A DNA stretch of 64,000 nucleotides from Parafannyhessea umbonata (GTDB taxonomy: Bacteria > Actinomycetota > Coriobacteriia > Coriobacteriales > Atopobiaceae), in NCBI RefSeq assembly GCF_900111255.1, contig NZ_FOGP01000008.1:1-64000 (forward strand). The letters run 5' to 3'. Shown piece after piece: positions 2,577 to 45,590 of this stretch. Each line of letters begins with the position of its first letter. Positions within the stretch are counted from its first letter, which is position 1. The translations under genes and the position numbers were made by a program. Under the pieces are notes generated by a model, which was not told the DNA's origin, ran no database searches, and worked only from the letters and a program-made list of their open reading frames with translations.

Positions 2577-2610
2577 GGCACGGCCCCGTTCGCGGGGCCG
2601 TGCCTTTTTT
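2577..2610 (+). terminator. Intrinsic terminator of the IPQTG surface protein gene
   Basis: A perfect 12-bp GC-rich stem (2577-2588 with 2593-2604) closes a TTCG loop and is followed at once by six T. It lies 30 bp after the stop codon at 2547. Confidence 0.95.
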
Positions 2611-3164: not shown

Positions 3165-3196
3165 TTGACAAATACATATGTATTTGAGACTATATT
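3165..3196 (+). promoter_or_regulatory. Probable operon promoter with 20-bp spacer and internal palindrome
   Basis: A consensus -35 box TTGACA (3165-3170) is followed after 20 bp by TATATT (3191-3196) as -10. The spacer holds a perfect 16-bp palindrome AAATACATATGTATTT (3170-3185). Long 19-20-bp spacers with a dyad inside them are the hallmark of promoters activated by MerR-family regulators, so a regulator of that kind, or a repressor binding between the boxes, is plausible. Transcription would start near 3203, giving a leader of about 67 nt before the ATG at 3270. A second TATATT at 3203-3208 has no matching -35. Confidence 0.5.
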
Positions 3197-3269: not shown

Positions 3270-5162
3270 ATGTTCTTCGATCCCACAACACTTCTCGGTA
3301 TTTCGACTCAGTGCGGAGATGCCACCCCCTTGCACCGAAAGGGACATCCCCTAGTCACTCGTATGGCGTGCGTTGCCGTCGTCGCGGGTGCGCTCTCGCT
3401 TGCGACGGCTCTTTTTGCGGCCCCAACTATGTCGTACGCCAACGAACCTCCTGGCGATTCTATCGCAGGCGACCAAATTGCTTCCAATTATCCTGCTGTC
3501 GTTGATTACGATCGCATCGCGCTCGACACAAGTGAGGATTATTCCGCGCGGCCTACTGTGTCGGATGGATCTTCCATCGGTGCCGACCTTTACGTTGTGA
3601 CTGATACGGGTTCATCTTCTGCTGGTGAATCGGATACCGAAGCGTTGTCAGATGAAAACCCGTTGGCATATTCGTGCCAGAGTGAAATCGATGCGACTCA
3701 GGTGTCTAGCTGCGCAAACCTCATTCCTTCTTCAGACTCAGATTTGAACAATTCCGCACTTGATCCTTCTTACGTCATCACCTATGTGAAGTGTGATCCT
3801 AACGGCAATCTATTGAATGGCCCTGACGACATGGATTCCGTGCAGAAATCCGCTCCAATCGGCACGACAGTTAATATTCGCGACGTTGATCCCGATTTTA
3901 TGAACCATTTTGATGGCTATGTCTTTGCGTCTAGGACATCTGCAGGCTATGCGAGCACTGATTCCGTAACGGTCACCGGCTCTGGCTTTGACCGCATGCG
4001 GTTGTTGTTCGTTCCTGGTTTCTATTCCTATGTTATTAGCGTCGTGGACGATGACGGAAGCTTCTACGACGGTGGTGCAGTTAATTATCGCTCTAACGTT
4101 ACCTGGGATTCTATTGTTGCCTTTGAGGAGAATGGCGTTAATTCCGATACTTTCAACACTACCTATAAGCCCAAGCCTGGTTATAAGGTCGGCAAGTTTT
4201 TCTATAAGCTTGAGCGCAACATGGACAATTCACTCAGCACCGACTTCCTTTGCCCCGACTCAATGAAGTTCGGTGATATTGTGAATGAGCTGCGTAAAGA
4301 GCTTCGGAAGACGGGTGAGTTCTTTAATGCCGACGCACCCCTTCAGCTCTACGGCACCTTTGTCATGCGCAATGACTATCAAGTAGAGTTTGACGTCTCC
4401 GGTCTAAGTGCTGGCGACAATGGGCAGCCCAACAATCGAGTCGGCGTCAGCTGGGATTCGCGGGACCTTTCTCCCGTCTACGATGCCCTTGTTGCCGCTC
4501 CCGTCAACGAAGTGGTTTGGACGTATCGTAGCGGTTCGGGAAAGATGCTTGCCGTGTCGGACGATACGTCTTTTGCGGATGTGTATACCTCTTGGTATGG
4601 TGACGACGCTTCTTATGGATCCGTCACCCTGAAGGCCGTTTACGCCTCAGAGTTTTCTTCTGACGATGGTCAGGAGAATCCTGGGCAGCATCAGGACCAA
4701 ACAGGCTCGAACGAGACGGGCGGCCAAGAATCATCCGATAACCAGAATGTGGCCGAAGACGGGGGTGGTCAGTCTGTGCCTCCGGCATCGGGGAGCTCTT
4801 CTGGTACGAATCTCTTTTCTCCGTCCCAGGCTGATCTTTCATCTGAGGTGGGCGTTGGAGATAACGCCGCCAGTAATTCCAATAGTTCAATTTTGATTGA
4901 TAAGGCCGGTTCAAAGTCTAGTAATGCGACTCGAACTGATTCCTCAATTTTTGAGCCGGCTTCTTCACCTGATGCTGCCGCTTTGGCGGCTGCCGAAGAG
5001 CCGACGGCAATCGAGCCGCCTGCTCCTGCGGTTGTGGGTGACTCAAACGTCTCGCAATCCGCTTCCGGGGACATCTTTAATCCGCTTGCCCCCGTGGGCG
5101 TGGTTCTTGTTGCGTCCGCATTTGGCGTCTATGCATTGAGGCGAAAGCGGTTGGTTGACTAG
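3270..5162 (+). CDS. Secreted three-repeat InlB-like protein with C-terminal membrane tail, first gene of the operon
   Basis: The frame is open from further upstream, but the TTG at 3165 is the -35 box and the ATG at 3231 has no ribosome binding site. The ATG at 3270 has GAAAGG (3257-3262) seven bases upstream, giving 630 residues. Residues about 31-57 form a signal peptide ending SYA|NE. A Ser/Asp-rich linker with two Cys follows to about residue 165, then three diverged InlB B-type repeats (about 167-460), a Gln/Ser/Gly-rich linker, and a C-terminal hydrophobic segment (about 607-623) with tail RRKRLVD. Where a sortase motif would be expected the sequence reads SASGD, so there is no LPXTG. 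It is probably a membrane-held or atypically sorted surface protein. It ends 65 bp before the giant gene and its codon use is less GC-rich than that of the giant's core. Function unknown; a partner or anchor of the giant protein is an inference. Confidence 0.85.
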   Translation: MFFDPTTLLGISTQCGDATPLHRKGHPLVTRMACVAVVAGALSLATALFAAPTMSYANEPPGDSIAGDQIASNYPAVVDYDRIALDTSEDYSARPTVSDGSSIGADLYVVTDTGSSSAGESDTEALSDENPLAYSCQSEIDATQVSSCANLIPSSDSDLNNSALDPSYVITYVKCDPNGNLLNGPDDMDSVQKSAPIGTTVNIRDVDPDFMNHFDGYVFASRTSAGYASTDSVTVTGSGFDRMRLLFVPGFYSYVISVVDDDGSFYDGGAVNYRSNVTWDSIVAFEENGVNSDTFNTTYKPKPGYKVGKFFYKLERNMDNSLSTDFLCPDSMKFGDIVNELRKELRKTGEFFNADAPLQLYGTFVMRNDYQVEFDVSGLSAGDNGQPNNRVGVSWDSRDLSPVYDALVAAPVNEVVWTYRSGSGKMLAVSDDTSFADVYTSWYGDDASYGSVTLKAVYASEFSSDDGQENPGQHQDQTGSNETGGQESSDNQNVAEDGGGQSVPPASGSSSGTNLFSPSQADLSSEVGVGDNAASNSNSSILIDKAGSKSSNATRTDSSIFEPASSPDAAALAAAEEPTAIEPPAPAVVGDSNVSQSASGDIFNPLAPVGVVLVASAFGVYALRRKRLVD

Positions 5163-5194
5163 CGCTGCGCCATAACGATCCACATGGCGCAGCG
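5163..5194 (+). promoter_or_regulatory. Hairpin between the first operon gene and the giant gene
   Basis: Positions 5163-5173 are the reverse complement of 5184-5194 (11 bp perfect, 10-nt loop), starting directly after the stop codon at 5162. No T-run follows, so full termination is unlikely. It may act as a weak attenuator, an mRNA processing site or a 3'-end stabiliser that sets the ratio of the small protein to the giant. Confidence 0.6.
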
Positions 5195-5227
5195 GAAGCG
5201 CAAAACCTAGTGACTTTGAGGTTTGAG

Positions 5228-8200
5228 ATGAAAAACGTAATGACATACACGGCTCAGGAGGAAAGGGGAGTGTGGCGCGCCCTCGTCGGCGGCGTCATGG
5301 TTGCCTGTGCGGCGACGCTCCTCTCCGTCTTCGTGGCCGCTCCCTCGTTCGCGTTTGCGGATGAGGCGGGGGCGGATGGGGCCGATTCTGTCATTGCGGA
5401 GCCAAGCGAACAGGACAACTATGCCGATTTTCAGAGTTCAACTTTTGTAAATCAGCAGGTAGACAGTGTGGTCTCGCAATCCGCACCAGTTTCGGAGGTC
5501 AGCTCCGCCACAGAGCCTCCCGTGTCTGCTGGGGACGTTTGTGCAGAGGGGGACCCCTCTGCGGACGGGACTGAAGCTCAGGGGACAGTGGTTGCTGGGT
5601 CCAGGGAGAGTGACGATACACGGCAGAGCGAAGACAACAGTTCCGAACCCGGTGCCGTGGCGACTTCTCCGACTGACGCATCTAATATATATGTATCGGA
5701 CTCTTCGGAGGATGATCTCCATGAGGTTGATGCTGTCACTGAGGATGGACTCGAGCCCGCTCTGACCGAGAGCAATCCCAGCTCTTGCGTTTATCTGAGC
5801 GCCTCTTCTGAAGGGACCTACACGCTTGCCTATGTCCTGACCGATGGTGGCACATGGACCGTCGATACCTCAAGAATGCAGACGGAGTTCGCGCCGAACA
5901 CGGGCGTGCTTCTGCCTTCTGCGGGCTATGTCTACCGCGAGGGCTACCACCTCATCGGGTGGTCGGACACGCTCGGTGGTGCAGTTCTGTATGCGCCTGG
6001 CTACACGCGCTTCCGCATCAACGCAGATACAACCTTCTATACCGTTTGGGCTATTGATTCGTACGACGTTACGTACGTCTCGAATACGCTCGATGGGTCA
6101 ACTTGGTCGGGTTCCATTGCCCAACGTGCGGATTACAACACTTCGGTCTCGGTTCAGACGTGTCCCATGGCCACGTATTCGTATAACACCGCGACCATGA
6201 GCTTCGACCATTGGAGTACCGACCCCAATGACGTCGGCGTCTCCTATGGGGCTGGCGATACCCTGCTGGTCAAGGCTCCGGTTGCTCTGTATGCCATCTG
6301 GAAGACGGATATTCTGGAGTCTGGTACCGTCGGGGATAACCCCAACGTCTACTGGGAGCTCTATGCTGACGGCACGCTTGAGATGGGGCTCGTGAGCTCC
6401 TCTGGAAGTGCAAGTGTGTATGCGCCCGATTTCATGCGTGGCTCCACCAAGATCAACAAGGTCGTGACCAACGGACGCAAGAGCCAGGGCAAGATCAAGC
6501 CGACCACGCTGTTCAACTGGTTCCGCGATTGCCCCAACATGTCTTCGTTTGACGGTTCTGGTATCGACACCACGGACACGACCGTCTTCGCCGGGTGGCT
6601 TGAGTACACGCTCCAGACCTGCAACGTCGAGAGCCTCGCCGTCACGGGCACGGGCGACTGGGTCACTACGGGAATGGTCGCGACGGGCTCGGAGGAGATC
6701 CTCGAGATGGGTCGTGTTTTCCACGACCAGTATGCCGTGCGCCCCCTCTCGGGAGACCTTGACATCCACAGCTGGACGATGCTTGGCGATGGCATCCTCA
6801 CGCCTTATCCAACGTTCACGTTTGGTTCCGCCGGCAAGCTTTCGTCCATTACACTCGGCGACGACTGCCGTCTTTCCGGCACGCAGTTCTCTCACGAGGG
6901 CGTTGGCGTCTGGCTCGGCAGCGATGGCTGGCATGGATCGAGCCAGGACCTCATGAACCGCTATCAGGACGGCACTACGGTTACGAAGGACTACGGGGTG
7001 GTCACCTATGTGTGGTTCCCTGGCGGCCCTGATGGAAATGACGTCATCTACAGCTATGACTTCGACCCCGACACGAAGACCGTCTACAACGTCAGATGGA
7101 GTGCCGCAGGCTTCCTCAATCCCTCCAAGAATGTCTGGTGGAGGCTCGTGTCTGGTACGCTCGAGATGGGTATTGAGGACCCTGACGGGGACGTGACGGT
7201 TAGCGTCTACGGCGGCATAAACGATGACTGGTACGGCGCCACGACCCCCTGGGCAAAGCTGCGCGAGTACATCGTTCGCGTCAACACGATGGGTTCAGGA
7301 TCGAACGGAAAGATCAAGCCCACCACTCTCCGCGGGTGGTTCGAGGGTTGCGTGACGCTCGAGTACTTCGACGGGGCTGGGCTTGACACTTCTGCTTGCA
7401 CTTCTTTTGCTCAGCTGTTCGATGACGCGCACCCGGCGCTCACTGTCGTCAACGTCGGCGACTGGGATACTTCGAAGGTAACCTCCTTCCTGGAGGCGTT
7501 TGATGCCGACAGCACCTCAAACGCGCTGACTGGCGAGCTTGACATCCATGGATGGGACATGACAAGGGGCAATGTCTCCGGCATGTTCCTGGGCTCGGGC
7601 GACAATGCTAGCTGGATGGACTCTATCACTACGCTTATCTTGGGCGACAAGGTCGTCCTCACCGGCTCCGGCTTCAGCCGCACCAATGATGGCGCGTGGC
7701 TTGCGTCTGGCGGCCTGTTTGACGGTCGTCACCTTCGCACTGCGGAGCTCGTCTCGCTCTACGGGACGACGGGGGCAAGGTTCGCAATCGGCCAGACCAC
7801 TTGGATCTGGGTGCCCGGATACCTTGGCGGCACCTTTGCTTCCAACCCCAACGTCTGGTGGACGTTTGACACCGCTACGGGAACCCTCGAGATGGGCGTC
7901 TTCACCAACGCGTCCACGGTGGGGGAGAATAGCATCATTACCGAGAATTACAGCAACCTTCCCTTCGTGACCCACGCGGCGGACATCACCTCCATCGTGA
8001 CGGACGGCACCTCGTCCGCGGCAAAGATTAAGCCTCGTACGCTGGACTGGCGTCTTGGTCTTGCGTACGCGAGCCTTGCCTCATTCGACGGAAGTGGCTT
8101 CGACACCTCCCTCGCGACGAGCTTCGCGAACATGTTCCTTGACCATGCGGGTCCTCTTGCAGTCACCAATGTGGGCAGCTGGGACACCTCAAACGTCACG

Positions 8201-11200
8201 TCCTTCTCGTCTGTGTTTGATTCGAACGCAGCTGGCTCTCAAGCCCTTGGGGAGGCATCTACGCTCGACATTCATTCCTGGAACATGGTCGGGAAGGGTT
8301 ATGCGAACGCGTTCCGAAACGCCACGTCCGTGATCGACTTTCTGGTCTTGGGCGATGGCTGCGTGCTTACCGGCGCCAGCTTCAACCATGCCGACGACGG
8401 CGCGTGGTATGCGACGAACGGCGGGTACGCCGGCCGCTTCCTGCGCACTCCGCAGCTTGTCGCGTTCTACGGCGCGAATGGCGCAAAGCTTGCCATTGGC
8501 GACACCGTCTGGCAGTGGTACGACGGCTACATGGGAGGAACCTTCGCCTCGAACGACAACGTCTGGTGGAAGTTTGAGGTCGACACCGGCAAGGTGCTGA
8601 TTGGTACCTATGACGACGGCACGGCATTTGGCGAGACCGGCGTCGTCACAGAGTCTGGGGGCGACAGAGGCAACCTTCCCTTCGAGGGCTACTACCGTGA
8701 TTCCATCAAGTCCTTCTCGTCCGTAGCAACGGATCTCGCGGGCAATGCGACCATCAAGGTAAAGCCCACGAGTCTGCGCTGCTGGCTGCGCTACTACCCG
8801 CTTCTCGAGTCCTTTGACGGTTCCGGCATGGATGTCTCTGCGGTTACGGACATGTTTGGATTCCTGCAGCACATCGAAACCGCGACCGCCACCTCTGCTC
8901 GCACGCTCACGGTTTCCGGCGTGGCGGATTGGGACGTCTCCTCGGTGACCGACATGAACGCGCTCCTGCGCGACGGTTCGGGCTCGCGACTTGTGTCCGG
9001 GACCCTGGACATTGGCGGCTGGGACATGAGGGGTGCCTCCTGGTCAACCTGGCCCATCTTCAACACCGGAGGGCAGGGGACTACCTCTGGCTCCTCGGTT
9101 CGCGGCCTTAGCAAAATCATCTTGAGCAACAACACGGTTCTTATCGGCACGGCCTTCGCACACGGGGGAACGGGCTACTGGAAGGCCGTCTCTGGAACAC
9201 TTTCTGGTACGCTCCTCTCGAGCCAGGCGCTCGTTGCATACTATCCTAGGGTCGGAAACACCAATGGCGTAATCGAGTGGGAATGGATTGACGCTGCCGA
9301 TCTTCCCGCCTCCGACATTGCCGTTCCCGATGGCAAATCGGGCGTGCTCGCTTCCAACCCCAACATCTGGTGGAAGCTCGACGAGACCCTTGGCGCCCTC
9401 AGCATGGGCGTCATCGACCCCGCGAAGTCTCGCTTCTTCACGGAGTATGGCGCGAGTCTCCCGTGGTACGGAAAGGTCGTTCGCTCGTTCTACGCGGATG
9501 CTACCAACGGAAAGATCCAGCCCTACTCGCTCGAGGGCGCCGGCAACAACAGCGGGCGCTACATGGAGAGCTTCGACGGTTCGGGCATCGACACCTCCCT
9601 CGCCATCAGCCTGTATTCCTTCCTCGATTCTGGCTCCAACAACACCTTCGAGCTCAAGGGGACCGAGGCCTGGGACACCTCTCGCGTGACGACCTACACG
9701 TACTTCGCTGACGGTTCGCAGGGGTCGCGCATCACCGGTGGCCTCGACATCTCCAGCTGGAACATGGTCGGCGCCGACGTCTCGAACTTCCTGTCCGGTA
9801 ACGCCGCCGCCTCCCTCAAGTGGATTCGCCTTGGCGACGGCAGCGTTCTTGTCGGCACCGGCTTCAGCCACGATTACGCGGCTGATGGCGTTTGGCTGCG
9901 CGACGACCGCAACTGGCATGGCTCGACCGCCGACCTCATCGCACTGTACGCCGCTGGCGGTAACATGCTTGGCAAGCACGTCTATGTCTGGTTCCAGGGC
10001 AACGAGGACGCGAACGGGGATGGCATTCCCGACGGTGCCCCCTCGGATGCCAGCGTGACTTACACGTATGGTTACAGCGATGTGCGTCGCACCGTTTCGG
10101 TCGTCAGCTGGACCGCCGCGGGAACCTTTGATTCGAATCCCAACGTCGAGTGGCACGCTAAGGACGGCGCTGTCACGATGAACGTAGTCGCTTCTCCTGT
10201 GGACGTCACGGGTGACGGCATCGTCAACTCCCTCGACTTCCGGATTAGCGAGGGCGGAAGCTCGGATGCCACCAATGCTACGGGTCGCGGCAACCTTCCG
10301 TTCGACTTCCTTTACAAGTACATTCGCAGTGTGGCCACTGTTAGCTCCGTTTCCACCGAGAAGATCGTGCCCCTGACCATGAACAGGTGGTTCCGCCTGT
10401 ATCCCGCGCTCTACAAGTTCGATGGCGCGGGACTCGACGTCTCCCTTGTGTCTGACATGTACGCCTTCCTCGCGAGCTCTTCTGGCAGTTCCATTGCCCA
10501 GAATCTGATGGTTACTGGCGTCGAGGACTGGAACACCTCGAGCCTTCGCGACGCCCGCTGGATGTTTGCCGACATCACTAGCTCCGCCACGCGCTCCCTG
10601 CTGGGCATTCTTGACCTGAGCGGATGGGACCTCACTCGCGCTAACGTCCAGAACATGTTCTACGGCCCCAACGTCGGGGGAGTGGCGAGCTCCGCCCGCA
10701 ATCTCCAGGTGATTGTCCTTGGTAGCAACGGCGCGCTTGAGGGAAGCATGTTCGCCAAGGCGGGCACCGGACTCTGGCAGGCCGAGTCCGGAACCTATCG
10801 CGGCGGCCAGCTTCCCACCTCCACCCTGTACTACTTGTATCAGAGGGGTGGCAACGGCATGGGCCTTGGGTCCATCACCTGGACGTTCGTCGAGGGGCTC
10901 ACGGTCTCCGGCGTGACCATTCCCGGCAAGAGGGGAGTGTTCGCGTCCAATCCCAACGTGTGGTGGGATTTCGACAACGACTCCGGAACCCTCACCATCG
11001 GAGTGTACGACGCCGGCAGACCCACTATCGTTACCGAGGGACTTGCCCATACCGGGCAGGGGAGCGACCTGCTGCCCTGGCTGTACGGTTCCAACGCCCT
11101 TGCCAGTGGCGCCATCAAGCGCATCGTTACGGCTCCCGAGTCGGGCAAGCCCCAGGTCATGCCTTGGGACATGTATGCCTGGTTCTGCAATTCTCGCTAT

Positions 11201-14200
11201 CGCTACGACGGCTACTACAGCAATCTCGTCTACTTTGACGGTTCCGGCCTCGATACCTCTCACACGCGCACGATGGTCGCGCTCTTCCGCGACTGCGCGA
11301 AGCTCGAGACCATCGACGGCGTCGCCGGGTGGGACACAGGTTCGACCACGGACTTCCGCGAGATGTTCATGGGTTGCAGCGCCCTCAAGAGCCTGGACAT
11401 CTCCAACTGGGACGACAAGGCCTATGGTGACGCTAACCCCGACCGTTCCTCGGCGCCGCTGATTGATTCGATGTTCACATACATGTCGAACCTCGACACG
11501 CTCACCGTAGGCGAGAAGGTCGTACTTACCGGTACCGGACTTACCCACAGCGGCGTTGGCGTCTGGCTTGGGCAGGACTCCGCCAATCCCTGGCACGGCA
11601 ATACGGCGGAGCTGCAGGCTCTCTATCCTGCGGCGACTGATGCTGCTCTGGGCGGCGGGCGCACCTTTGTCTGGGTCAAGGACCTCCCCGACTCTCGGAC
11701 CGTCACATACCGCTATGACTACGACCCGGATACGAGGACGGTTTCCGGCGTCAGCTGGTGGGTCGGTGGCACCTTTGCCAATCCGAATGTCTGGTGGTTC
11801 CTGAAGGATGGCAAGCTTAACCTTGGCGTGACCGACGCCAGCGCATCGGCAAGTCGCGAGGTGACCGAACATGGCTCGCGCGACAACACCGGTGGCTCGA
11901 CGCTTCCCTGGTTCTACCTGCGTGACTTTATCTCTTCTGTTGCGACCTCCGGCGTTGACGGCAGCGGCAATGCCTCTGCCGGCGCCATCCAGCCGCTTAA
12001 CCTTGAGAGCTGGTTCGAGGGATACAAGATTCTCGGCCTGTTTGACGGGTCGGGCTTCGACACCTCCAAGACAACCACCATGGCGCAGCTGTTCGACGAT
12101 GGCCCGAAGAACCTCGAGCTGCGCAACATCGGCAACTGGAACACCTCGAGCGTCACGAGCTTCTACGGCACCTTTGAGTCCGATCTTACGGTTGCCTTCG
12201 ATGGCTCGTCCGATGACAACCATGTCATCGTCGGGGCGCTTGACCTGCACGACTGGGACATGACCCACGGCAGCGTCGCCTATGCGTTCAGCTACGATAA
12301 CAAGGACAACATGGACGGCGTCACTACCCTCATCTTGGGCAATGGTGTCGTGCTCCAAGGATCTGGCTTTGCCCGTCTCTCTCCCGGCGTGTGGGCGTGC
12401 ACGAGCGGCACGTACCTCAACGTACGCGTGACGACCGAGCAGCTCCTTGCGATGTACCGTGCCGGCGGCAATGATCTTGGCATTCAGACCTGGACTTGGA
12501 TTGCCAACGGCACTGCGACCGTCCCTGCGGGTGCCAACGGCGTATTCATGAGCAATCCCAACATCTGGTGGAAGATTGATGGAAGCACGCTCGTGATTGG
12601 TGCCGAGAGTGCATCTCGCTCGCTCACTGTTGCTGAGTACGGTACCTCCGTCCCCTGGAATTCGCTAAGGAACAACTTCATCAGTTTTGCCCCCAACGTT
12701 ACCAACGGCAAGGTTGCTCCCATCAATCTCTCTGGCTGGTTCTCTGGCTGCTCTGTCCTGGAGACCGCGAAGTTCGAAGATCTCAATCTCTCCGGCATAT
12801 CGAGCCTCGCGAACGCGCTCTCCGGAACCGTTCTTGAAGGCACTCTGCCGATGAGTTCTTGGAACGTCGATACCACGAGCATTCCTGTGAGCGGGCTCTT
12901 TGCCGGGACTGCGACGAGCAACCTGTCCAGGATTGTTCTGGATAACGACTCGGTTCTTGAGGGGACTGGATTCACGCACGTTGACGGTGGCTATTGGGTT
13001 GCCTCCGGTGGCACCTATAACGGTCGTTCCGTCACCACCGCTCAGCTCATCAGGCTGTATCCTGCCGCCGGTAATGACCTTGGCGCCACGATATGGAATT
13101 GGGCAACGGCTCCCCAGGAGGGCGTCTTTGCTTCCAACGACAACATCTGGTGGAAGTACGATGCGACTACCGGCGCTCTTACCATCGGCGCCCACGACGC
13201 CTCGAAGTCCCATGAGGTTACCGAGTACGGTGACAAGCTTCCTTGGAACATCTGGAACAAGAAGATCACGTCCTTCTCGGTCGTTGATGCCGCGACGAAA
13301 GGTAAGATTCAGCCCGCATCGCTCCAGGACTGGTTCCACACCGCCGTCTGCCTCACGAGCTTCGACGGTTCTGGACTTGACGTTCAGAACGTCACCAACA
13401 TGCGCAACTTCCTCTTTAACGAGGCTGCTGACGGATACGCCGCGGTGACCCTGAACATCACCGGCGTCTCCAATTGGGAGACCTCCAAGGTGACGGATAT
13501 GACCAACATCATCTCCATTGCCTCTAACGGTAGGAGCTACCTCGCCGGGGACTTCAACATTTCTGGTTGGGATATGTCAAAGGCCCTGCTGACGGGAGCC
13601 TTTGGCGGCGGCATTATGGATAGCGTTGGCCGGCTCGTTCTGGGCTCCAAGACCGTTCTTGCCGGCAGTTCCTTCTATCACTCCGCGACCGAGGCTGGAA
13701 CGGGTACGACGAGTGGCGTTGGCGTCTGGCGTCGTACCGCGGGCACGATGATTGCCTCGTCTGATGGTCTGAGGCAGCTGTATCCGAAGGCTGGCAACCC
13801 CTACGGAGAGCAAATTTGGGTCTGGGATGCTGACGTGAACACCCCCAACGTCTTCGCTTCCAACCCAAATGTCAGGTGGGACTTCAATGCGGGAACCGGC
13901 AAAATTACCCTGAGCATCATCGACCCCGAGCTTTCTCGCGTGGTTACCGAGACGGGCGAGAGGCTTCCTTGGTACGTTGAGCGCGAGAGTGTGAGGGACT
14001 TTGGCGTCAACATGACGAACGGAAAGGTCGAGCCCACGACGCTCTATCATTGGTTCCTCGGCAACTCGTTCCTGTCGCACTTCGACGGCAAAGGCCTCGA
14101 TGTCAGTGGCGTTACGGACTTTTCTGGCATGTTTACCGACACCAACCTGACGGGCGCCCTTGACGTTGCGTCGTGGGGCTGGGATCTCAGGGGCAAGACT

Positions 14201-17200
14201 GTCGACAACATGTTCTCCGGCACCGCCCTCAAGAACGTCACCAACCTCACCGTTAACGACAACACCGTTCTGGCCGGTACGGGCATCGCCAATGCCGACG
14301 AGGATGGTGCATGGAGGCGTGTGAGCGGCACGTTGATAGTCTCGAGCCCGAGGCTCATGCAGATTTATCCCTCGGCTGGAAACGACTACGGCGTGCAGAC
14401 CTGGTACTGGGATACCGCCGCCACGGCTCCCACCAACCTGTTTGCCTCTAACCCCAACATCTGGTGGACGATGGACGACTATGGCAACCTGACGATCGGT
14501 GCCTTCGATACCGCCATCAGCCACGTCGTCACCGAGGACGGGCAGTCGGTGCCTTGGGCTGGCAAGCGCACGCAGATTACCTCGTTCGCGTCTGACCCGA
14601 CCTACGGCAAGGTTGAGCCGACCACGATGTCTCTTTGGTTCGAGGACCGCAACGCCATCGTGGACGGCGTATACAGGATTCACTTCAACTACTATGGCGT
14701 GCGCTGGTACCTGGGCGCGCGCAGCAACAACACGCTTGTCCTGGTCTCCCAGGACAACGTTCCCTCCGACGTCAAGGTTGACTGGACGGTCACCAACATC
14801 GGCGGTGCCTACACGCTTCTTAGCGGATACGGCACCTACATGCGTTACACGGGAGCAAGCACCGATGCGGGGTACCACGGCGGCGCCCTTGACGGAAACG
14901 CCAAGTGGCAGCTGGTTAACCTGAGCACCTCGCCCTACAACAGGATTGTCATTACCTCGACGCAGAACCTCAACCAATCCGTAGACCTAAAGGGAGGTAC
15001 GGCCGAGCAGTACAATCCCGTTCGCTACTGGACCAATGGCGGCTGGGATGGCATGAGGAACACGCGCATCGCCGACAACGGAGCGCGTACGCCCAGCAAC
15101 GGCACCTTCACCTACGCCGAGGTCTGGCACTTCGAGCGCATGTCCACGGAGCTGACGGCCATCGATTTCACGGGAGTTAAGGTAACCGGAGCCGTTGTCT
15201 CCAACATCTTGGAGCATGCGGCCAAGCTCGAGTACATTACGGTTGACGACACGTCGGTCCTCGCCGGTACGGGTCTTTCTCGCTCTGGCGTTGGTTCCTG
15301 GGTTGCGAGCAATGGCCCGCTCAGTGGTCGCGGAGTCTACAACTCGACCCTGCAGAAGATCTACTCCGCTAGCGGCAACTCTCTTGGTGCCAACACTTGG
15401 ACCTGGACGAACAACCGCCCGAACACCTTTGAGTCCAACTACAACGTCTGGTGGAAGCTCGAGAATGGCGCCCTCACCATTGGCGCCTACGACGAGAACC
15501 AGTCTCTCGAGGTCTCCGAGTACGGCGATTCCCTGCCGTGGGCGCATCGCATGGGTGAGGTCACGTCCTTCTCGGCGAACACTGATCATGGCATGGTTCA
15601 GCCCCTCAAGCTCGACAGCTGGTTTGCGACGCGCAAGACCTTCTCGGCGGTTTCGAGTTTCAGCAACTGGAGCAAGGCCGGAATGGACTTCACCTCCGAT
15701 GGTGACACCTACGGGATGCGCGACTGGAACTCTGGCGAGCAATCCGAGATGTACATTGCCGTTGTTCTTGACGCCAACGTCACTTATCGCCTTCGCTTCC
15801 AGTATGCCTTCGTGAGGGGCGAGAAGACCAACCTTCCCATCTGGATTGGACCTAATACCTCGAACAACAGCGGCAACATCATGTCCGACTATCTGTATCC
15901 GGGCAACACCTCACTTGTGACCTTCGACCGTACGCTGAGGCCCTCTTACACTGGAACGTTCTACATCGCTATTGATCTTGACCCCAACAATGGAGCCTAT
16001 GAGTACTTCACGATTAAGGACATCCTCTTCTGTGAGGCGGGCTCCGAGGGCGGCTCGCAGCTCTCGTCCGTCGACCTCACGGGACTCGACTGCTCCAAGA
16101 CCACCTCGGTAACGAATGAGTTCAGGCTGACTCCTGCGACCACCCTCAAGCTCAAGTCTGACTCTGTCCTCACAGGCGCCGCTCTTTCGAAGTCCGGCGG
16201 TGCATGGGCTGCCCAGGACGGTAAGCTTGCTGGAGCAAAGCTGACGAACGCTCAGCTTGTCGCGTTCTATGGTGTCGGAGGCAACGAGTATGGTCCCATC
16301 ACTTGGAATTGGGCAGCGGGTGAGCTGAGCAATGTCTTCGGCTCCAACGCGAACGTCTGGTGGAACGTTGACGCCAGCGGCAACCTCACCATCGGCGCCT
16401 TTGACTCCTCGCTCTCGCGTGTGGTGACAGAAAACGGCGCGCATCTTCCTTGGGCTGACATTGCGGGTAGCGTCCTGACGTTTGACGTCGACGAGTCTAA
16501 CGGGCGAATCCTTCCGAAGACGCTCGATGGCTGGTTCAGCGGTAATATGCTCACCGGTGACCAGGCCCTTCCCGGCACCTGGAGCCGTAGCGCAATGGGC
16601 CTGCAGTCCTATACGGACAGCACCATCACCATGAATGGCGCGAATGGTATTGCCGTACTCTACACTCGCATATACCTTCCTGCTACGGACTACTTCCTCT
16701 CGCTTGACTACACTGCCCCCTTCGGCGGCATGTGGCTTGAGGTCGACTCTGGCGTACATGCTGTTGGCTACGGCGGGCATAGCGGTTCCGCCATCGGAGC
16801 GATCCAGATGACCGGCTCCGGCGTAAGACATGGTTCCACGACCTTCACCGTGACAAACGCTGGGTACTACTACCTTATCTTCCAGCTTGATGGCCTAACG
16901 GATGGGCATACCGCTACCGTTACCATGGCCAATCTCACTCTGACGAGCGGTGCCAGCGCGAAGCTCACTGCGTTTGACGGTCATGGTCTCGATCTCTCGC
17001 AGTGCAGCTCTGCGGTCAGCGCTCTGACGGGTGTCTCGTTCACCGGCAACGTTAACATGGCTAGCTGGGATTGGGACACCAGGGCCATAAACGTTACCAA
17101 CATGCTTGCAATCTCGACCGGAAACGTCGACTCCATCACTCTGGACAACGACGACGTTCTCCTGGGAACCAACATCCGCCATAATGGTTCGGGCGCCTGG

Positions 17201-32200: not shown

Positions 32201-35200
32201 CCCTATGGTCCTGAGATTGTCTCCTGGGGCCACAATCCTACCGGTGACACCGCGACAATCGTCGAGAAGGACGGCTACTACCTCTCCGGCTGGGACTACA
32301 CCATGACAAAGGACGGGACTACGGTCACCGGTACCCTCACCACTGACCTCTCTGAGTTCCTCGTCTACGGACCCACGACGCTTGTGGCCCGTTGGAGCGC
32401 TGCACGTACCGTCGAGTACCTGCCTGGCGAGCACGGCAATTGGACCGCCGATCAGCCGAGCGATCAGGGCGTTACCATTTACCCGCACGCCAATCCCACG
32501 GGTTCCGTGAGCGATTACGCGTTTGGCGGACCCCTTGACGCCTGGGGCCGTCCGAAGTCGACCGACGTCAACCAGTGGGTGTTCATTGGCTGGAAGGAGG
32601 GCGGAGTCTACTACCAGCCTTCCGAGGTGATTGGACTGACGGTTGGCGAGGGCCACACGTTCATCGCACAGTGGGGCGAGATTCACTACTACGTCCACTT
32701 TGACGGTAACGTTCCGCGCGTCGATGGTTCAATTCCGACCATTACCGAGACGCTCCGCTATCCCGACTCCATGCCTGACCAGCCCATGAGCTTCGACGGT
32801 CGCTCTCAGCTCAAGAAAAACACCTATGCGGTCACCGGCTTCGTGTTCAAGGGCTGGTCGACGGTGCGCCAGCTTTGGAGCGACGCCAATGGCGACGGAT
32901 ACGTCGATACCCACACCTCGACTCCCGTCGAGTGGGCTGACGCCGCCATATTCGATCGTGCTCAGGACCCGGATCCGTCCAAGTGGAACGTCACGCTCTA
33001 TGCGGTCTGGGAGCTTGCCTCCTACACGGTGAACTTCGTGAGCGAGGACGACAGCCTTGGCACTGTGAGCGGGCCCTCATCGCTTATTACGCAGGGCGTC
33101 ACCTATCGTGAGGGTCCCGTCATCACTGATGGGTCCGGCTCCATTGGTGTCGTTCCCAACAAGGCTCGCTTCCTTGGCTGGGATTGGGTCATGGTTAACG
33201 ACGAGGGCAGGACGTTCAAGAGCGATAAGCCCGTCTCGACCTCCGACCTCATCAACGTCTCAATTCTCGGCAAGACGACGTTTACGGCTCGCTGGATGCC
33301 GCTGTACGACGTCGTGTTCATGAACGGCGCCCATGGCGACTTCATTGAGGCCAGCGAGGGGACTACCAAGTTCTCGAACCTTGACGCCGGAAGCGCCTTC
33401 CCCGTGTACGCGGGCGCATTCGGAACGAGCCCCCTTGTGCTCACTCGCTATCCTGCCTCTACGGGCGACGCCTACATGTTCGCCGGGTGGCTTCGTACCG
33501 AGGATGGCATCGTCTATGGTGGGCCTGATGGAGCGGGCAACCCCAAGCTTCCCAACGCCCTTGACGGCAACTACACGCTTGTGGCTCAGTGGGCTCCTCT
33601 CAAGACGCTCCTGCACTTCAACCCGAACGGTGGCTCTCCCGCCTCGCCCAACATCCTCGACGACGTCGAGGGGTACACCTTCACCCAGGTCTCGACACCT
33701 GGACCTCTCTCCGTCTCGCGTCCTGGACGCGTGCTCGACGGCTGGTCGCTTTCCGCTAACGGAGACGCCGTGGTCGGCGCGGGTGAGCTCTACTATCTCC
33801 CCGGTGTCGAGACCACGCTTTACGCGCACTGGAAGGAGGAGGTCATCACCATCTCGTATGTCTCCTCCAACCCCGGCGCCTACAACTACGTCACGGTCGA
33901 CGCTGAGACCATCGGCGCCGTTACGGGCAAGCATGTCAACGACGACAGCCTTATCACCGGTTCCCAGGCCATTGCGACGTATGGGTATCACTTCGTGCAT
34001 TGGGTTGACGAGAACGGCGATATCGTTGGCACTTCTCCGCTGTTCGTTCCGACCGTCGGGCCTGACGGCGTGTACGTTCCCATGGAGTACACGGCGGTGT
34101 TTGCCGAGAACGACGACGTTACGCTCACGTATCAGCCGGACAACTCCTCTTGGGGTTGGGTCTCGCGCTCGAGCGAGAAGGTCGCCCCCGCAACCGGCAT
34201 CTCGACGGGCTCGATCGCCTACGCTCGACCCGGCTACAAGTTCCTCTACTGGGAGGACGAGAACGGCGAGAAGTTCTACGATGCCTACTTCATTCCCAAG
34301 AAGTCCGGCATGGATGACGCCGCCGGAGCGGTTCTGTTCGGAGACGGTCGCAGGTACATCTACGTCAGCGCTAACTACATCGCCCACTTCGGCCTCGCGG
34401 ATGACGTGAAGTACACCGTCAAGCACTTCCTCGAGAATACGACCGGTGGCTTCGAGGAGTACGAGGCGATTCGCGAGACCCACCAGGGAACCAACGGAGA
34501 CACCGTCACGGCTACTCCCAGGACGGACATCCAGGGCTTCACCTACAACGAGGCGTACTCCACGATGTCTGGAACCATCGCCCCCGACGGCAGCCTAGTG
34601 CTTTCCGTCTTCTACAAGCGCAACGTCTGGAAGATTACCTACAGGTACACCAACGATATTCCTGGTGCGCCCATGGCCGACCCCTACCAGTCCATGGGTG
34701 GACAGGACGGGGCCTATGGACTCACATATAACGTTCAGCCCAAGCCGACCATGAGGGGCTACAAGTTCGTTGGCTGGACCACAAGAAGCGTCTCCCTCAC
34801 TGACGACGGTGCGGGCGGTTACACGTTCATAATGCCCAACGCAGACGTCGCCTTCACGGGAACGTGGGAGAAGGCCGACTTCGACGTGCTCTTTACGGAG
34901 TCCCCGTATGCTGAGGATAACCTCAGCAGTACCGCTCCTGCTGGTACGGTCACGGGCACCGGTGTCAGCTACTCTGGCAAGTATGGTGACCCCATTGTCA
35001 TGAACGACGTCGTCACGACTCCGTCAAGCGGCATGGTCGAGCTCAAGGGTTGGCGCTACGAGGTCACGGATGCCTCCGGGACGGTCATCAGGAAGGGCTT
35101 TACCCTTCCTCAAGGCCCCAAGTCCATGACTCTAACCGGCAACACTACCTTCTATGCTCGTTGGGGTTTGACTGACGTAGATGAAGTCGTTTGGGGTTCG

Positions 35201-38200
35201 GGCTTGCATGGCGATCCGGCCGTCTGGGACCCGCTCAATGAGGTGGCTTTTGGGCCCGTGGGTCCGTATAGCTACTACAATGTCATTAGATCAAACGCCG
35301 CGAGTCCTACCGCCCTTGCCATGATCTCCTCTGGCGCCTTCTTCCGTGGTGGTACTCCCGATGGCTCTAACCCCTCAACGGCTGCCTATGCAACCCTTCC
35401 TGCTTCCGGGGCCTCGTTTGGCGCTAATGACATGTGGGTTGCGGGCAACCCCATGCCGGGCAATTTGTATTTCCATGGAGCATCGACAAACATTCCTACC
35501 GGGATTGAGCCTGGTTGGCGCTTTGCCGGCTGGACCTGGACGGAATACATCAACGATGGTTTCGGTGGGCAGATTGCCGTCGATCGCACGGCGACTTACA
35601 GCGCTGCCGGCGTATGGGGTGGCGATCCTCTGCCCACACTCCTGCAAGATCGCTCCTGGTACTTCGAGGCTATCTACGAGGCACAAACGCTCACGCTACT
35701 CTTTGATAAGAGCGGGGGATCTTGGTCAACTAACCCCGTGACGGTTAGTCCCGCTGACGGCATCAGCCCGTACTTTACCGATGCCGGGCTCACCGTGACG
35801 ACCGGTGACAACGTCACCGTTCCCAAGCTCGGTGATATTGCCAAAACTGGATACATCCTACTTGGGTGGTCTGACAACCCCGCCGACGTCATCACCAGGA
35901 CGCCGCAGTTCGCTCCTGGCGGAACATATGTCGTCCCCGGTAGCGCTTCGGGTACCATTACGCTCTACGCGATTTGGGGTGACGAGGGTAACGCTACCAT
36001 CTCGTATGTCACGTACTGCAAGAGCACTGCGGGCGACACTTCGGGTGGACAGATTATCAGGGACCTTACCAAGACATCTGGCGTTCCCGCGCCTTGGCCT
36101 GCTGAGACGGTTGCCACCATGTCCGGTAATCCCGAGGGAGCCCTTGTCATCCCCAATGACGGCAGGCCTCTCAAGAGCGGCGGCGGCTACGAGTCGGCCA
36201 ACTACGGCTATCACTTCGTGGGATGGTACGAGGGTCCGACGCGTTCGACGCTCATTACTACAAACGCCCAGATAACTGCGGCTGACATGCGCGCGAAGGG
36301 CTATGGCTCTCCATGGACCAACCTTACCTTCTATGCCGTGTTCGAGCCTGACGCCCCCAACCTTGTTATCAAATACGAGGTCATGAATACTACTGGCGGC
36401 ACCGTTGCCCTCAACCGCACTGGCGCCTCGAAGGCTAATGCGGTTGATGAGATGATTGCCCCCGTCACGCATAAGCACTCGGATGGCTCCAACATCTACG
36501 GTGCCGTTGCCACACCTCTTGCTGGCTACAAGTTCAAGGGTTGGAAGTATCGTGATGCAACCGGCGCCTACGTCGACTACACCTTCTCCTCGGGGACGAT
36601 TGCGGACTCCGGCTACTCGACCTTCATGCCTGAACCCAACGCAAGGGGCATCTACGACATCTACGATGCCACTGGCGGTCATATCTTCTATGGCGATGAC
36701 TACAAGCTGTACGCCGTATTTGAGGCTGACCCCAACACGCCCTACTTTATCGAGATCTACGTTGTCGATAAGGTCGACAAGGTTGGCGGAGGGTACAACT
36801 TCGTCGTGAATGGCACTGGTCCGAGGGAGGTTCGAATTCTCACTGGGCCTACTGGCTCGACGGGTAACGTCCCCAGCGCCCTTACATCTGGGTCTGACGC
36901 ATCTTTCACGGGCTACCACTTGGATACCGCCGATACCGACTGGGTTTCTGGAACGACGTATCCCGGCCTGTACAAGTACGTCACCTACTCTTACACCGGC
37001 AACCCTGCCGCGGGTACGGCTACTGCCGTCGTCAACAACACCGGTGCGACGATTTCGCCGCTCTCTTCCGTCACCAGCGGCACGATCGTGGGAGACCCGA
37101 CTCAGTATCTGATCCTTCGCGTGTTCCTGGTACAGGACAAGACCTATAGCATCAAGTACTACGCGAATGACGGCACGTCCACGGGTAATGTCACGCCCAT
37201 CCTAACCCAGTCCATTATCCTTAACACCTCCGTAACCATCGGCGTTCCCGTGTCTCCCACCCGCGCTGGATACAGTTTCCAGGGATGGAACACCAAGGAT
37301 GACGGCTCGGGCACGGCCTATGCCGACGGTGCCTCTTGGACGACCACCGGCGATCTGACGCTGTATGCGGTCTGGAAGGCCGAGGACACCTCGTACAAGG
37401 TCACCTACCACTTCATCGATGGTGACGGCAATGACGTCAAGACCGACGTCTGGATCTACGGACGAACGGGCTATGTTGCAGGCGGTGCCCTTGACGGCAG
37501 TGCTAAGACGGCCAGCCATCCCTCGATTGCCCAGCTTACCGGCTCGAGCTCGACCGGATACACCTTCGTCGACGGAAGCACTGGAAACTATAAGGGCTAT
37601 TCATTCTCGGCCAGCGGAAACTATCCCAAGACTGGTACGCCTTATACGAGCGCCACGACCGTGGGCGGCGTTGGCCTTGCGGCCGACGGAAGCTCCTCGT
37701 TTGACGTGTACTACATTGCCGATGAGTTCAAGCTTACGGTTGTCCCCGCCAATGTTGATCCTCCGTTTGTCGAGAAGACCGGCCACTGGGCTCCTGGCTA
37801 TACCACGTTTGGCGATGATTCCGCGGTCAGCGAGTATCCGTTCCCGCACACTCCTACGACACCCGGTCCTCGCACGGGCGAGTCGATTGTGCTTCCGACC
37901 TCGGCTCAGGTTATCCGTAAGGGATATGACCTTGACGGTTGGAGCGAGACGAAGGGGTCGACTACCGTTGACACCATAGATGGCGTCCTCCTCAACGCTG
38001 GTGCCACCCTGAAGATGCCTGCACGTAACCTGAACCTCTATCCCGTCTGGAAGCCTGGTGACACCACGCTTACCATCAACGCGCATCCCAATGACGAGAA
38101 TGGTGTGGCCATCACTGACGGTAATATCCTTTCGCCTTACATTACGGCGCATCTTACGTCAACGCCCGCCGACACGTATCGCGCGACGATTGAGTACAAG

Positions 38201-40573: not shown

Positions 40574-40581
40574 GATGGGGT

Positions 40582-42933: not shown

Positions 42934-42984
42934 CCCCTCTCACGTGCATCATCGCGAGTGGCTATTGATGGCGGGAGGGTAGTC

Positions 42985-45528
42985 ATGACTGCCGAAATGA
43001 ACAACTCGGAGTTCGTCGAATCGTCCGCTGATTCCTCGAAGTACGAGAATAAGCGTAGCGTGGGCTATCACATCCTGCGCATCTCGCTCTTTTTGACGGC
43101 TGCGGTTTGCGCCGTTATCGGCATGTTCCTCTTAAACCAAAACACTAACCATCAGGTTGAGGTTGAGACCGTTGCGAATGGGGTAATCCGATCGGAGAGC
43201 CAGGCGCGCGTCCTTCTTATCATGAGCTACGACGATTCCCACGCTACCGTACCGTACGAGCGCAAGGGCGTTCTCGACTACATGAAGCGCAGTGGGGTTG
43301 AGGTCGACGTCGAGTATATGGACACCAAGGCTTATCCGGTTGGCTCGCCGGCATATGATGCCTGGAAAAGAACGATGGCCGAGAAGATCTCGTCGTCCGA
43401 TTCCTATAACGCCATTATCTGCGCCGATGACGACGCCCTTACCTTCGTCGAGCAGAACCACGACACTTTGTTTAGGGGCCTTCCCGTCGTATTCTTTGGC
43501 GTCAACGATTTTGACCATGCCACCCGGGCGACCCAGTCGGGCTACGAGACCGGAATATATGAGAACAGCTCGCTTGCCGATACTATGCGCGCGGCATCGG
43601 TTCTTCTTCCAGGCGCAAACAAGTTCCTCGCCATTGTGGACAACACCTCAACCGGCAGGGGCTCTTGTTCAACTTTTGAATCTCTCAAGTCCGAGTTCAG
43701 CGGGTTTGAGTTCAACATCGTGAATACGTCAGAGCTTACGCACGACGAGCTTGGAGAGCGTCTTTCCAACGTTGGTGACGACACCATCGTCATTCACCTT
43801 GCTTCTTACGAGGATGCTGACGGCAACGCCTACTCGCTCGACGAGAGCTCTCACTATGTCGCCGAGAAGTGCTCGCGCCCCGTGTTTCGCGACAGCATCG
43901 GTGGCGTAGGCGAGGGAATTTGTGGCTCAGGTTTTGTCGATTACGAAAGGCAAGGTGCACAAGCTGCAGAAATGTGCATTCAGATTCTAAACGGGGAGCT
44001 TCCTGGTAACCTGCCCCTCGTAACGGATGCCACCCCATCATATATATATGATGCGAAGGTCTTGGATCGCTTCGGGTTGGATAAGTCTGACGTGCCCGTA
44101 GACGCAATCATGATTAACGAGCATGGCATAAGCTGGCAGTCCGTCAGGCCGATTCTGTTCCCGGTGTTCCTCCTGCTGCTTGCGGTAACTTTCATTTTGG
44201 CCTTTGCGTACATCGGCTATGCTCGCAGCCTTCGTGATTCTCTTGAGATTCTTGAGTCTCGCAACAACCTCAGGTACCGTCTCTTTCACGACATCCTTAC
44301 TGATCTTCCCAACAGGCAGGCTCTCATGCAGTTTCTGCATGACGAGAAGAACGGTTCAATTCAGTCGATTGTGAGTATTGACCTTAACGACTTCGGTGAC
44401 ATCAACGACTCGTACGGGCATGACTGCGGCGACTATGTTCTGAAAGAGATCGGTAGGCGCCTGAGTGAAATTGACTCCAAGCTTCTTGTGCGCTCTGCTG
44501 GCGACGAGTTCATCCTTGTTCTGGGTGAACGCGTCGAACCGGAATCAGCTCTTCTCGCTCAGATAATGAATGTGTTTGCCGAGAAGGTTGCCTTTGGCGA
44601 TTCCGTTCTCGACATTGAGGCAAGCTACGGCGTTGCCAATTGGGATGAGTCGATGGACGAGAGTTCTATTGTCCAGTGCGTCGACCTCGCCATTCGTAAT
44701 GCCAAGGTGGTCGGTGGTGGCGACTCGGTATTCTTCTACGACGAACAGATGAAACGTGACATGGAGAGAAAGCTTGAGATTACGGACTATCTTAAGCTTG
44801 CGATTGCGGAGGAGAGTCCCGTCGTTTTGTTCCAGCCCCAGGTGAACACCTACGACAAGTCCGTCTACGGTTATGAGGCTCTTGTTCGACTAAAGGACAA
44901 CGCGTATTTTCCCGATCAATTCATTCCGGTTGCTGAGGCTGCTGGTCTTGTCTCGAGTATCGATCGCATCGTTACCAAGAAAGTGATCCAGCAGCAGGCT
45001 GCCTGGCGTGCCGAGGGTCGCGAAATGAAGGTCGTTTCAATTAACTATTCGGCTGCTCAGCTTCGCGACGAAACCTATTGCGATTTCGTTGAGTCCCTGC
45101 TTCGCGAGTATGACGTTGAACCGCGCTATCTCAAGATTGAAATTACGGAATCGATGATGCTCGAGAACGAAGGTCTTGCTGAAGAACTGTTTTCCAGACT
45201 TGAACAAATGGGCATTTCTCTTGCGCTCGATGACTTTGGAACCGGTTATTCTTCTCTCTATAGAATGGCGACCACTCCAGCTGAGTACGTTAAGCTCGAT
45301 AAGTCTCTGGTTGATACTTACATGGTCCCTGGTAAGGAAGACTTCATCGATCACCTTACCCAACTAATCCACGGCATAGATAAGAAGATCATCGTGGAGG
45401 GCGTTGAGACTGCGGAGCAATACGCGATTTGCAAACGAATGGGCTGCGACATTATCCAAGGCTACTTTTTTGCCCGACCGCTTCCTTCTGCAGAGGCTGG
45501 CGCATTCGATCCCAAGACTGTCGCGTAG
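42985..45528 (+). CDS. Membrane GGDEF-EAL protein with an extracytoplasmic ABC-substrate-binding-like sensor
   Basis: The start is the ATG at 42985 with GGGAGGG (42973-42979) five bases upstream; the GTG at 42958 has no such site. The protein has 847 residues. Order: cytoplasmic N-terminus; transmembrane helix about 30-50; extracytoplasmic domain about 75-365 beginning VLLIMSYDDSHATV, resembling ABC_sub_bind (PF04392)-type binding domains; transmembrane helix about 387-412; GGDEF domain about 430-590; EAL domain about 600-840. The GGDEF motif reads SAGDEF (A505-F509), with intact DLNDF, INDSYGH and GD elements but no RxxD inhibitory site. The EAL domain keeps EALVR (E631), the Asn of INYS, EITES, LDDFGTG (D749, D750), LDKSL and EGVET, so phosphodiesterase activity is well supported; cyclase activity is possible. 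It probably makes or degrades cyclic di-GMP in response to an outside ligand. It ends the operon, 51 bp after the preceding gene. Confidence 0.93.
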   Translation: MTAEMNNSEFVESSADSSKYENKRSVGYHILRISLFLTAAVCAVIGMFLLNQNTNHQVEVETVANGVIRSESQARVLLIMSYDDSHATVPYERKGVLDYMKRSGVEVDVEYMDTKAYPVGSPAYDAWKRTMAEKISSSDSYNAIICADDDALTFVEQNHDTLFRGLPVVFFGVNDFDHATRATQSGYETGIYENSSLADTMRAASVLLPGANKFLAIVDNTSTGRGSCSTFESLKSEFSGFEFNIVNTSELTHDELGERLSNVGDDTIVIHLASYEDADGNAYSLDESSHYVAEKCSRPVFRDSIGGVGEGICGSGFVDYERQGAQAAEMCIQILNGELPGNLPLVTDATPSYIYDAKVLDRFGLDKSDVPVDAIMINEHGISWQSVRPILFPVFLLLLAVTFILAFAYIGYARSLRDSLEILESRNNLRYRLFHDILTDLPNRQALMQFLHDEKNGSIQSIVSIDLNDFGDINDSYGHDCGDYVLKEIGRRLSEIDSKLLVRSAGDEFILVLGERVEPESALLAQIMNVFAEKVAFGDSVLDIEASYGVANWDESMDESSIVQCVDLAIRNAKVVGGGDSVFFYDEQMKRDMERKLEITDYLKLAIAEESPVVLFQPQVNTYDKSVYGYEALVRLKDNAYFPDQFIPVAEAAGLVSSIDRIVTKKVIQQQAAWRAEGREMKVVSINYSAAQLRDETYCDFVESLLREYDVEPRYLKIEITESMMLENEGLAEELFSRLEQMGISLALDDFGTGYSSLYRMATTPAEYVKLDKSLVDTYMVPGKEDFIDHLTQLIHGIDKKIIVEGVETAEQYAICKRMGCDIIQGYFFARPLPSAEAGAFDPKTVA
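44036..44053. repeat. 18-bp perfect palindrome containing (TA) run, inside the GGDEF-EAL gene
   Basis: CATCATATATATATGATG is self-complementary and encodes part of the ...SYIYDAK segment at the end of the sensor domain, using a rare ATA isoleucine codon. It could bind a regulator or simply be chance; similar (TA)4 runs occur at three other places in the window. Confidence 0.7.
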
Positions 45529-45549
45529 ATTCTTCTTACATATATATAG

Positions 45550-45590
45550 TTGGCCGGCCTCAGTATGATTCTTGGGGCCGGCCAATTGTT
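45550..45590 (+). terminator. Terminator of the giant-protein operon
   Basis: A perfect 10-bp stem of TTGGCCGGCC (45550-45559) with 45576-45585, enclosing 16 nt that can add two or three more pairs, is followed by a T-rich stretch TTGTTATTT. It starts 21 bp after the GGDEF-EAL stop codon. Confidence 0.8.

Follow-up and report, generated by a model that had tools for sequence, protein, structure and literature searches.

A putative operon joining a giant surface adhesin to its own cyclic di-GMP signalling protein in Parafannyhessea umbonata and other Coriobacteriales

We consider it moderately probable that an operon of Parafannyhessea umbonata serves a giant surface adhesin together with its own cyclic di-GMP (c-di-GMP) signalling protein, the latter being a ligand-sensing phosphodiesterase coupled to adhesin display. 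The window, i.e. the whole stretch of DNA analysed, comprises the first 64 kb of the 85.8-kb contig C11 of a 2.06-Mb genome in 13 contigs (G000). Four genes, here called P1, the giant, P3 and P4, all lie there on the + strand, closely spaced or overlapping where they meet, with a real terminator behind P4 (Table 1). Judged from the sequence, surface attachment and a c-di-GMP signal are probably linked at this locus, and in the comparisons made here the conserved core is giant-P3-P4 and not four genes. Giant adhesins coupled to c-di-GMP are familiar mainly from diderms (Lap, Dvh), and the Gram-positive form of such coupling mainly from the riboswitches of Clostridioides difficile; the operon giant is among the largest bacterial surface proteins.

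Table 1. Features of the operon and its surroundings (positions in the window)
Feature	Position	Strand	Basis or remark
End of upstream giant InlB-repeat protein, C-terminal 848 aa, outside the operon	1-2547	+	open frame from contig start; Pfam Flg_new
Strong intrinsic terminator behind the upstream giant gene	2577-2604	+	12 pairs, 11 G-C, then T-run
Promoter-like TTGACA-20 bp-TATATT	3165-3196	+	sequence
18-bp perfect palindrome CAAATACATATGTATTTG overlapping the promoter-like spacer	3169-3186	+	sequence
P1, 630 aa	3270-5162	+	signal peptide aa 32-50; C-terminal membrane segment about aa 602-623, then RRKRLVD
Giant adhesin, 11,781 aa from ATG	5228-40573	+	GTG start possible at 5210
BspA-like DUF285 half of giant	6335-24037 (boundaries approximate)	+	Pfam DUF285; motif spacing
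InlB B-repeat (Listeria-Bacteroides, Flg_new) half of giant	24065-39997 (boundaries approximate)	+	Pfam; repeat positions
Acidic Ser-rich C-terminal tail of giant, ~190 aa	39998-40570	+	without LPXTG or membrane segment
P3, 783 aa	40582-42933	+	TTG start possible at 40570; signal peptide, InlB repeats, hydrophobic C-terminus
Hydrophobic Ala/Gly-rich C-terminal segment of P3	42658-42765	+	hydropathy; alignment of P3 family
P4, 847 aa	42985-45528	+	GTG start possible at 42958; TM, extracytoplasmic sensor, TM, GGDEF, EAL
P4 extracytoplasmic domain, ABC_sub_bind (PF04392) / class-I solute-binding fold	43180-44163	+	last few codons are TM2
P4 GGDEF domain, motif SAGDEF (44491-44511, RSAGDEF)	44284-44709	+	Pfam E 1.2e-22
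P4 EAL domain, full catalytic set (EAL, N, ExxE, DDFGTG, K, EGVE, Q)	44800-45480	+	Pfam E 8e-58
Intrinsic terminator after P4, operon end	45546-45589	+	18-pair stem, strong
Second giant, DUF285 then InlB repeats, separate transcription unit	46373-64000, on to contig end at 85797	+	

The four open reading frames stand where an earlier note on this DNA had placed them, and for ATG starts the gaps P1/giant, giant/P3 and P3/P4 are the 65, 8 and 51 bp given there; with the first possible GTG or TTG starts the same junctions measure 47, -4 (an overlap) and 24 bp. Terminator and promoter scans returned no strong terminator and no forward promoter at the junctions between the four genes, and P1, the giant, P3 and P4 are presumably co-transcribed. 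The terminator claimed at 45550-45590 was recovered as well. The genes of the interval singled out in that note (3270-45590) are real, but the neighbouring giants on both sides had been left out: the operon sits between two further giant genes, a terminator separating each of them from it.

Contig C11 carries three giant genes in a row. The upstream one ends in IPQTGD, a membrane segment and RRR, which is a sortase-type anchor (in the fragment, IPQTG at aa 809 and the membrane segment at aa 820-838), and the genome has one sortase gene. The second giant begins ~0.8 kb past the operon terminator and stays open for at least 13,141 aa, up to the contig end. A circular contig, with the second giant running into the upstream frame, is not supported because the contig ends share neither an overlap nor 20-mers. 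The genome has at least one further, unplaced piece of a giant, the entire 9069-bp contig G000:C8 (L116) being a single InlB-repeat giant frame. The one match to Pfam pAdhesive_15 in the genome, on contig C6, is unrelated to the operon locus.

Ahead of P1, both boxes of the promoter-like site proposed earlier are present, but the 20-bp spacer exceeds the ordinary sigma-70 length and the promoter scan did not pick the site. The 16-bp core of the overlapping palindrome is unique genome-wide, with up to one mismatch allowed. Such a spacer with an overlapping palindrome resembles MerR-type promoters, and we take the site to be a possible MerR-type operator. No riboswitch was found by an Rfam scan of the 64-kb window (c-di-GMP-II being covered within it), nor any c-di-GMP-I riboswitch in the G000 genome. 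The sole c-di-GMP-I riboswitch in seven genomes lies in G081 (G081:C29:36995-37070, L115), with a signalling-like gene nearby on the same strand. An AT-rich hairpin (2811-2872) lies past the upstream terminator and ahead of the operon; the Rfam match to mir-3927 on both strands of this inverted repeat was discarded, its score being far under the gathering score.

The giant is built of two repeat types. Its DUF285 half (Pfam E 1.7e-41 and 2.9e-19) consists of ~200-330-aa modules, each marked by an N-V-W-W-like motif, and is followed by the InlB half (Flg_new, E 8.1e-70 and 1.5e-32). An N-terminal signal peptide (aa 18-36), as for Sec export, is the sole hydrophobic segment of the protein, so that the giant indeed has no C-terminal membrane segment, as had been reported, and the combination of an LPXTG-like motif, a membrane segment and a basic tail is absent from its C-terminus. 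A frameshift concealing an anchor was rejected, since the other frames contain no membrane segment before the P3 signal peptide. In contrast, the giants with a visible C-terminus in G041, G273 and G081 end in an LPXTG-like motif (PPRTGD, MPRTGD or IPQTAD) and a membrane segment, as does the upstream giant. The anchor-less state is therefore particular to this giant or this genome, and the comparison does not support the idea that it forms part of the system.

Both small proteins carry the C-terminal membrane segments ascribed to them (Table 1). In P3, the Ala/Gly-rich hydrophobic stretch is followed by a basic cluster (RKRRR) and an acidic end. That they share the InlB repeats of the giant is clear for P3, with Pfam Flg_new and Flg_new_2 over the cut-off, but weak for P1: its ectodomain returned no Pfam match and no Pfam repeat even at E 10, and its similarity to the upstream InlB protein (31% identity over 70 aa) is weak. 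P1 has no homologue in the ten other related genomes checked, where contigs end inside giants and the position of a 5′ gene is not visible. For this lack of homologues we exclude it from the core; as far as these genomes go, P1 is an orphan, a local addition. P3 has homologues in G041, G366, G002, G273 and G338 (22-32% identity to the window P3), and the family is best conserved in and near the hydrophobic C-terminus, where most of the invariant alignment columns fall.

P4 combines an outer sensor with a cytoplasmic GGDEF-EAL module. The sensor matches PF04392 (E 3.1e-6, 27.1 bits against a curated cut-off of 25.9), and a PDB profile search gave 3lkv, 6hni and 3lft as the only solved-structure sequence matches. 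A structure model of moderate confidence (mean pLDDT 68.8) returned 6hni, 6hnj, 3lft and 3lkv as top matches in a fold search, with E values down to 1.2e-10 and TM scores of 0.54-0.71 among the five best. The closest folds are thus those of CD0873 (6HNI/6HNJ), SP1069 (3LFT) and VC_1101 (3LKV), which differ from the P4 sensor in being stand-alone substrate-binding proteins. The proteins of 3lkv, 6hni and 3lft bind Phe, Tyr and Trp (PMC6816091). Since the CD0873 selectivity residues defined in that work are not conserved in P4, aromatic amino acids are only a lead to its ligand class, and tyrosine, suggested by CD0873, was dropped as the P4 ligand for the same differing positions.

On the cytoplasmic side, the EAL domain retains its full catalytic set and the window P4 can probably break down c-di-GMP. 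The GGDEF motif reads AGDEF; enzymes with this motif or with SGDEF can be active (PMC3974145). Pfam detected neither HAMP nor a LapD/MoxY domain in P4. An outer Venus-flytrap domain feeding a c-di-GMP module is also found in RmcA-type PBP-GGDEF-EAL proteins (Pseudomonas aeruginosa, L-arginine; PMC8846402), which differ from P4 in that their sensor is SBP_bac_3, not ABC_sub_bind, and in that linkage to an adhesin operon is not described (PMC8846402). According to the same 2022 review, PBP-clan sensors had not been studied in c-di-GMP networks, SBP_bac_3 excepted (PMC8846402).

A survey of 397 Coriobacteriales genomes with a profile of the P4 N-terminal half gave matches in 25. Seventeen P4 loci were inspected with their neighbours, of which seven are adhesin-linked (the window included) and ten are not. 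The linkage claimed for the window is seen again in G041, G366, G273, G338, G002 and G081: giant-P3-P4, or the part of it visible on broken contigs, occurs at these six further loci, in three families and in different chromosomal contexts. The comparison of related genomes, by which the earlier note's linkage could have been refuted, thus came out in its favour for giant, P3 and P4. The four-gene system of that note is accordingly reduced, giant, P3 and P4 recurring together but P1 being left without a homologue. The order giant-P3-P4 is found in G041 and G366, which belong to another family. In G273, of a third family, the end of the giant and P3 form one open frame with MPRTGD inside, and P4 follows after 23 bp. 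P3 and P4 overlap in G338 (same family as G273) and in G002 (same genus as the window), in both of which the contig ends before the giant; the P4 of G002 is split over two contigs and was joined by homology only. In G081 (contig C21) a giant of more than 13,600 aa with an IPQTAD anchor is followed by P4 and there is no P3, which makes it the exception among the seven linked loci, P3 adjoining P4 in the other six.

Some of these loci show peculiarities of their own. The G273 fusion (L063:3-2954) joins the giant C-terminus to a P3 that has its signal peptide, with no stop between. The G081 giant contains one frame change around G081:C21:108522-108604 (L076), either a sequencing error or a true break. 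In G041, a single 15,030-aa open frame with InlB repeats occupies about 180942-204563 of contig C1 (containing L090 and L098).

A profile built from the linked P4s separates them (at least 617 bits) from all others (at most 371 bits); the ten loci not linked to adhesins (G081:C28, G077, G014 and seven of genus g27) encode more distant enzymes. Identity of the linked P4s to that of the window is ~32-46% over the parts compared, or 57% where the C-terminal part from G002, of the same genus, is taken, so that the gene order has either been kept over a long divergence or moved as a unit. General synteny does not explain the linkage, because the surroundings of the locus vary: G002 has translation genes there, G081 has ABC-F along with other genes, and the remaining genomes have different neighbours again. 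Two changes of linkage state suffice on the P4 tree, by which the linked P4s as a single clade are neither supported nor rejected (p-AU 0.168). On these comparisons the linkage is old or mobile, and many independent origins are not supported.

The catalytic motifs vary along this series. The window has AGDEF, G273 and G081 have SGDEF, G338 has AEDEF and G002 GGDEF; G041 and G366 have a degenerate motif (SADAQF). The EAL domain of these two is degenerate too (DKFGAG, VGIEK): DDFG lacks its second Asp and EGVE its Glu. Their P4s, by their residues, are probably receptors or dead, and an enzymatic role cannot be general.

The mechanism that we infer extends to the regulation of the adhesin, the enzyme activity of P4, its ligand, its effect on display and the partnership of P3, and its steps are given here in order of decreasing support. 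P4 would sit in the membrane with its outer Venus-flytrap domain binding a small molecule, which may be an aromatic amino acid or a compound like it. Closure of the lobes would be passed via TM2 to the GGDEF-EAL module, which in the window, with its intact EAL, would act for the most part as a c-di-GMP phosphodiesterase, with AGDEF possibly contributing cyclase activity. Because P4 would be made together with the adhesin, cells displaying the giant would gain a sensor that lowers c-di-GMP upon ligand binding, and we propose that lowered c-di-GMP favours release of the adhesin or ends its production, a nutrient-triggered off-switch. P3, the neighbour of P4 at all linked loci but G081, would be the likely surface or membrane partner that holds the giant, or the one contacted by P4, a role that would matter most in the window since the giant there has no anchor of its own.

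The main rival to this ligand-sensing phosphodiesterase is a LapD-like receptor: P4 or its relatives would bind c-di-GMP inside and alter P3 or the giant outside, across the membrane, with catalysis dispensable. LapD itself is a catalytically inactive HAMP-GGDEF-EAL protein (PMC13090378), and the G041 and G366 proteins, degenerate in both domains within an intact operon, look alike, so that for the G041 lineage the receptor is the better reading. The altered GGDEF motif of every linked locus except G002 and the recurrent neighbourhood of P3 and P4 point the same way. Over the whole set of loci we nevertheless find it unlikely. EAL motifs are intact in five of the seven linked loci, including the window; P4 shows no HAMP or LapD/MoxY domain; and a LapG-type cysteine protease (PF06035) gave no match in any of the seven genomes, with a control match in Caulobacter, no protease being identified as an output. 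A protease-free monoderm counterpart of Lap, in which P4 reads both an outer ligand and c-di-GMP and, by membrane contact, alters the way P3 holds or releases a giant fibre that lacks its own anchor here, with P4 a pure receptor in one lineage, is a more doubtful proposal still, which we put forward tentatively.

P4 may also be an ordinary nutrient-sensing phosphodiesterase co-inherited with an adhesin island, adhesin control not being its task. Mere co-inheritance could account for the linkage since two changes of state are enough on the tree, the genome holds 15 GGDEF/EAL matches, related P4s with the same domains occur away from adhesins (the ten loci inspected), and the same-genus G001 encodes InlB-repeat frames as long as 3,269 aa yet no such P4. 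Against it stands the gene order, which persists in three families despite low identity, the genes being closely spaced and the flanks dissimilar, and we rate this co-inheritance as improbable, on a par with the receptor. That the locus is in decay, its giant having lost the anchor that relatives retain and being shed or loosely held by an operon that no longer works as a unit, seems to us very improbable: 35 kb of open frame carry no stop, P3 and P4 are intact and the junctions are tight, and for the other giant, which is anchored, the genome has its one sortase gene.

Compared with known systems, the operon is Lap-like in logic by analogy, and it is not a Lap member. With Lap (LapA/LapD/LapG/LapE, Pseudomonas fluorescens) it shares a giant adhesin whose gene is linked to that of a membrane protein combining an extracytoplasmic domain with a cytoplasmic GGDEF-EAL module, and a giant adjoins the operon of the c-di-GMP protein in the window, G041, G366, G273 and G081. 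The analogy drawn in the earlier note thus holds for the logic but not for the protease, absent here. Further differences are a P4 sensor of solute-binding and not LapD/MoxY fold, the intact EAL (a LapD-type module dead in both domains occurs only in G041 and G366, and not in the window with its AGDEF), the extra membrane-tailed partner P3 and perhaps, in view of the N-terminal signal peptide of the giant, the export route, Lap adhesins carrying type I secretion signals and being retained in the outer membrane. The Dvh system of Desulfovibrio vulgaris (DvhA/DvhD/DvhG) indicates that other receptor architectures can fill the LapD role beside a giant adhesin, but it has an HD-GYP and dCache receptor, a protease and a diderm host with type I secretion (PMC13090378). 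CD2831/CD3246 with PPEP-1 (ZmpI) in Clostridioides difficile are likewise Gram-positive, c-di-GMP-controlled and, as adhesins, sortase-anchored, but differ in relying on riboswitches and a secreted protease, with no giant and no GGDEF-EAL gene described in the adhesin operon (PMC6447587); no c-di-GMP riboswitch was found upstream of the adhesin in our locus.

Within the literature collection used, a full-text search returned no paper joining cyclic di-GMP, adhesin and Coriobacteriia. The P4s of the linked loci range from intact EAL through altered GGDEF to apparent loss of both activities, a natural series that could serve for separating enzyme from receptor roles. If conserved in gut Coriobacteriales, the arrangement would offer a genetic handle on the control of attachment in monoderm gut commensals.
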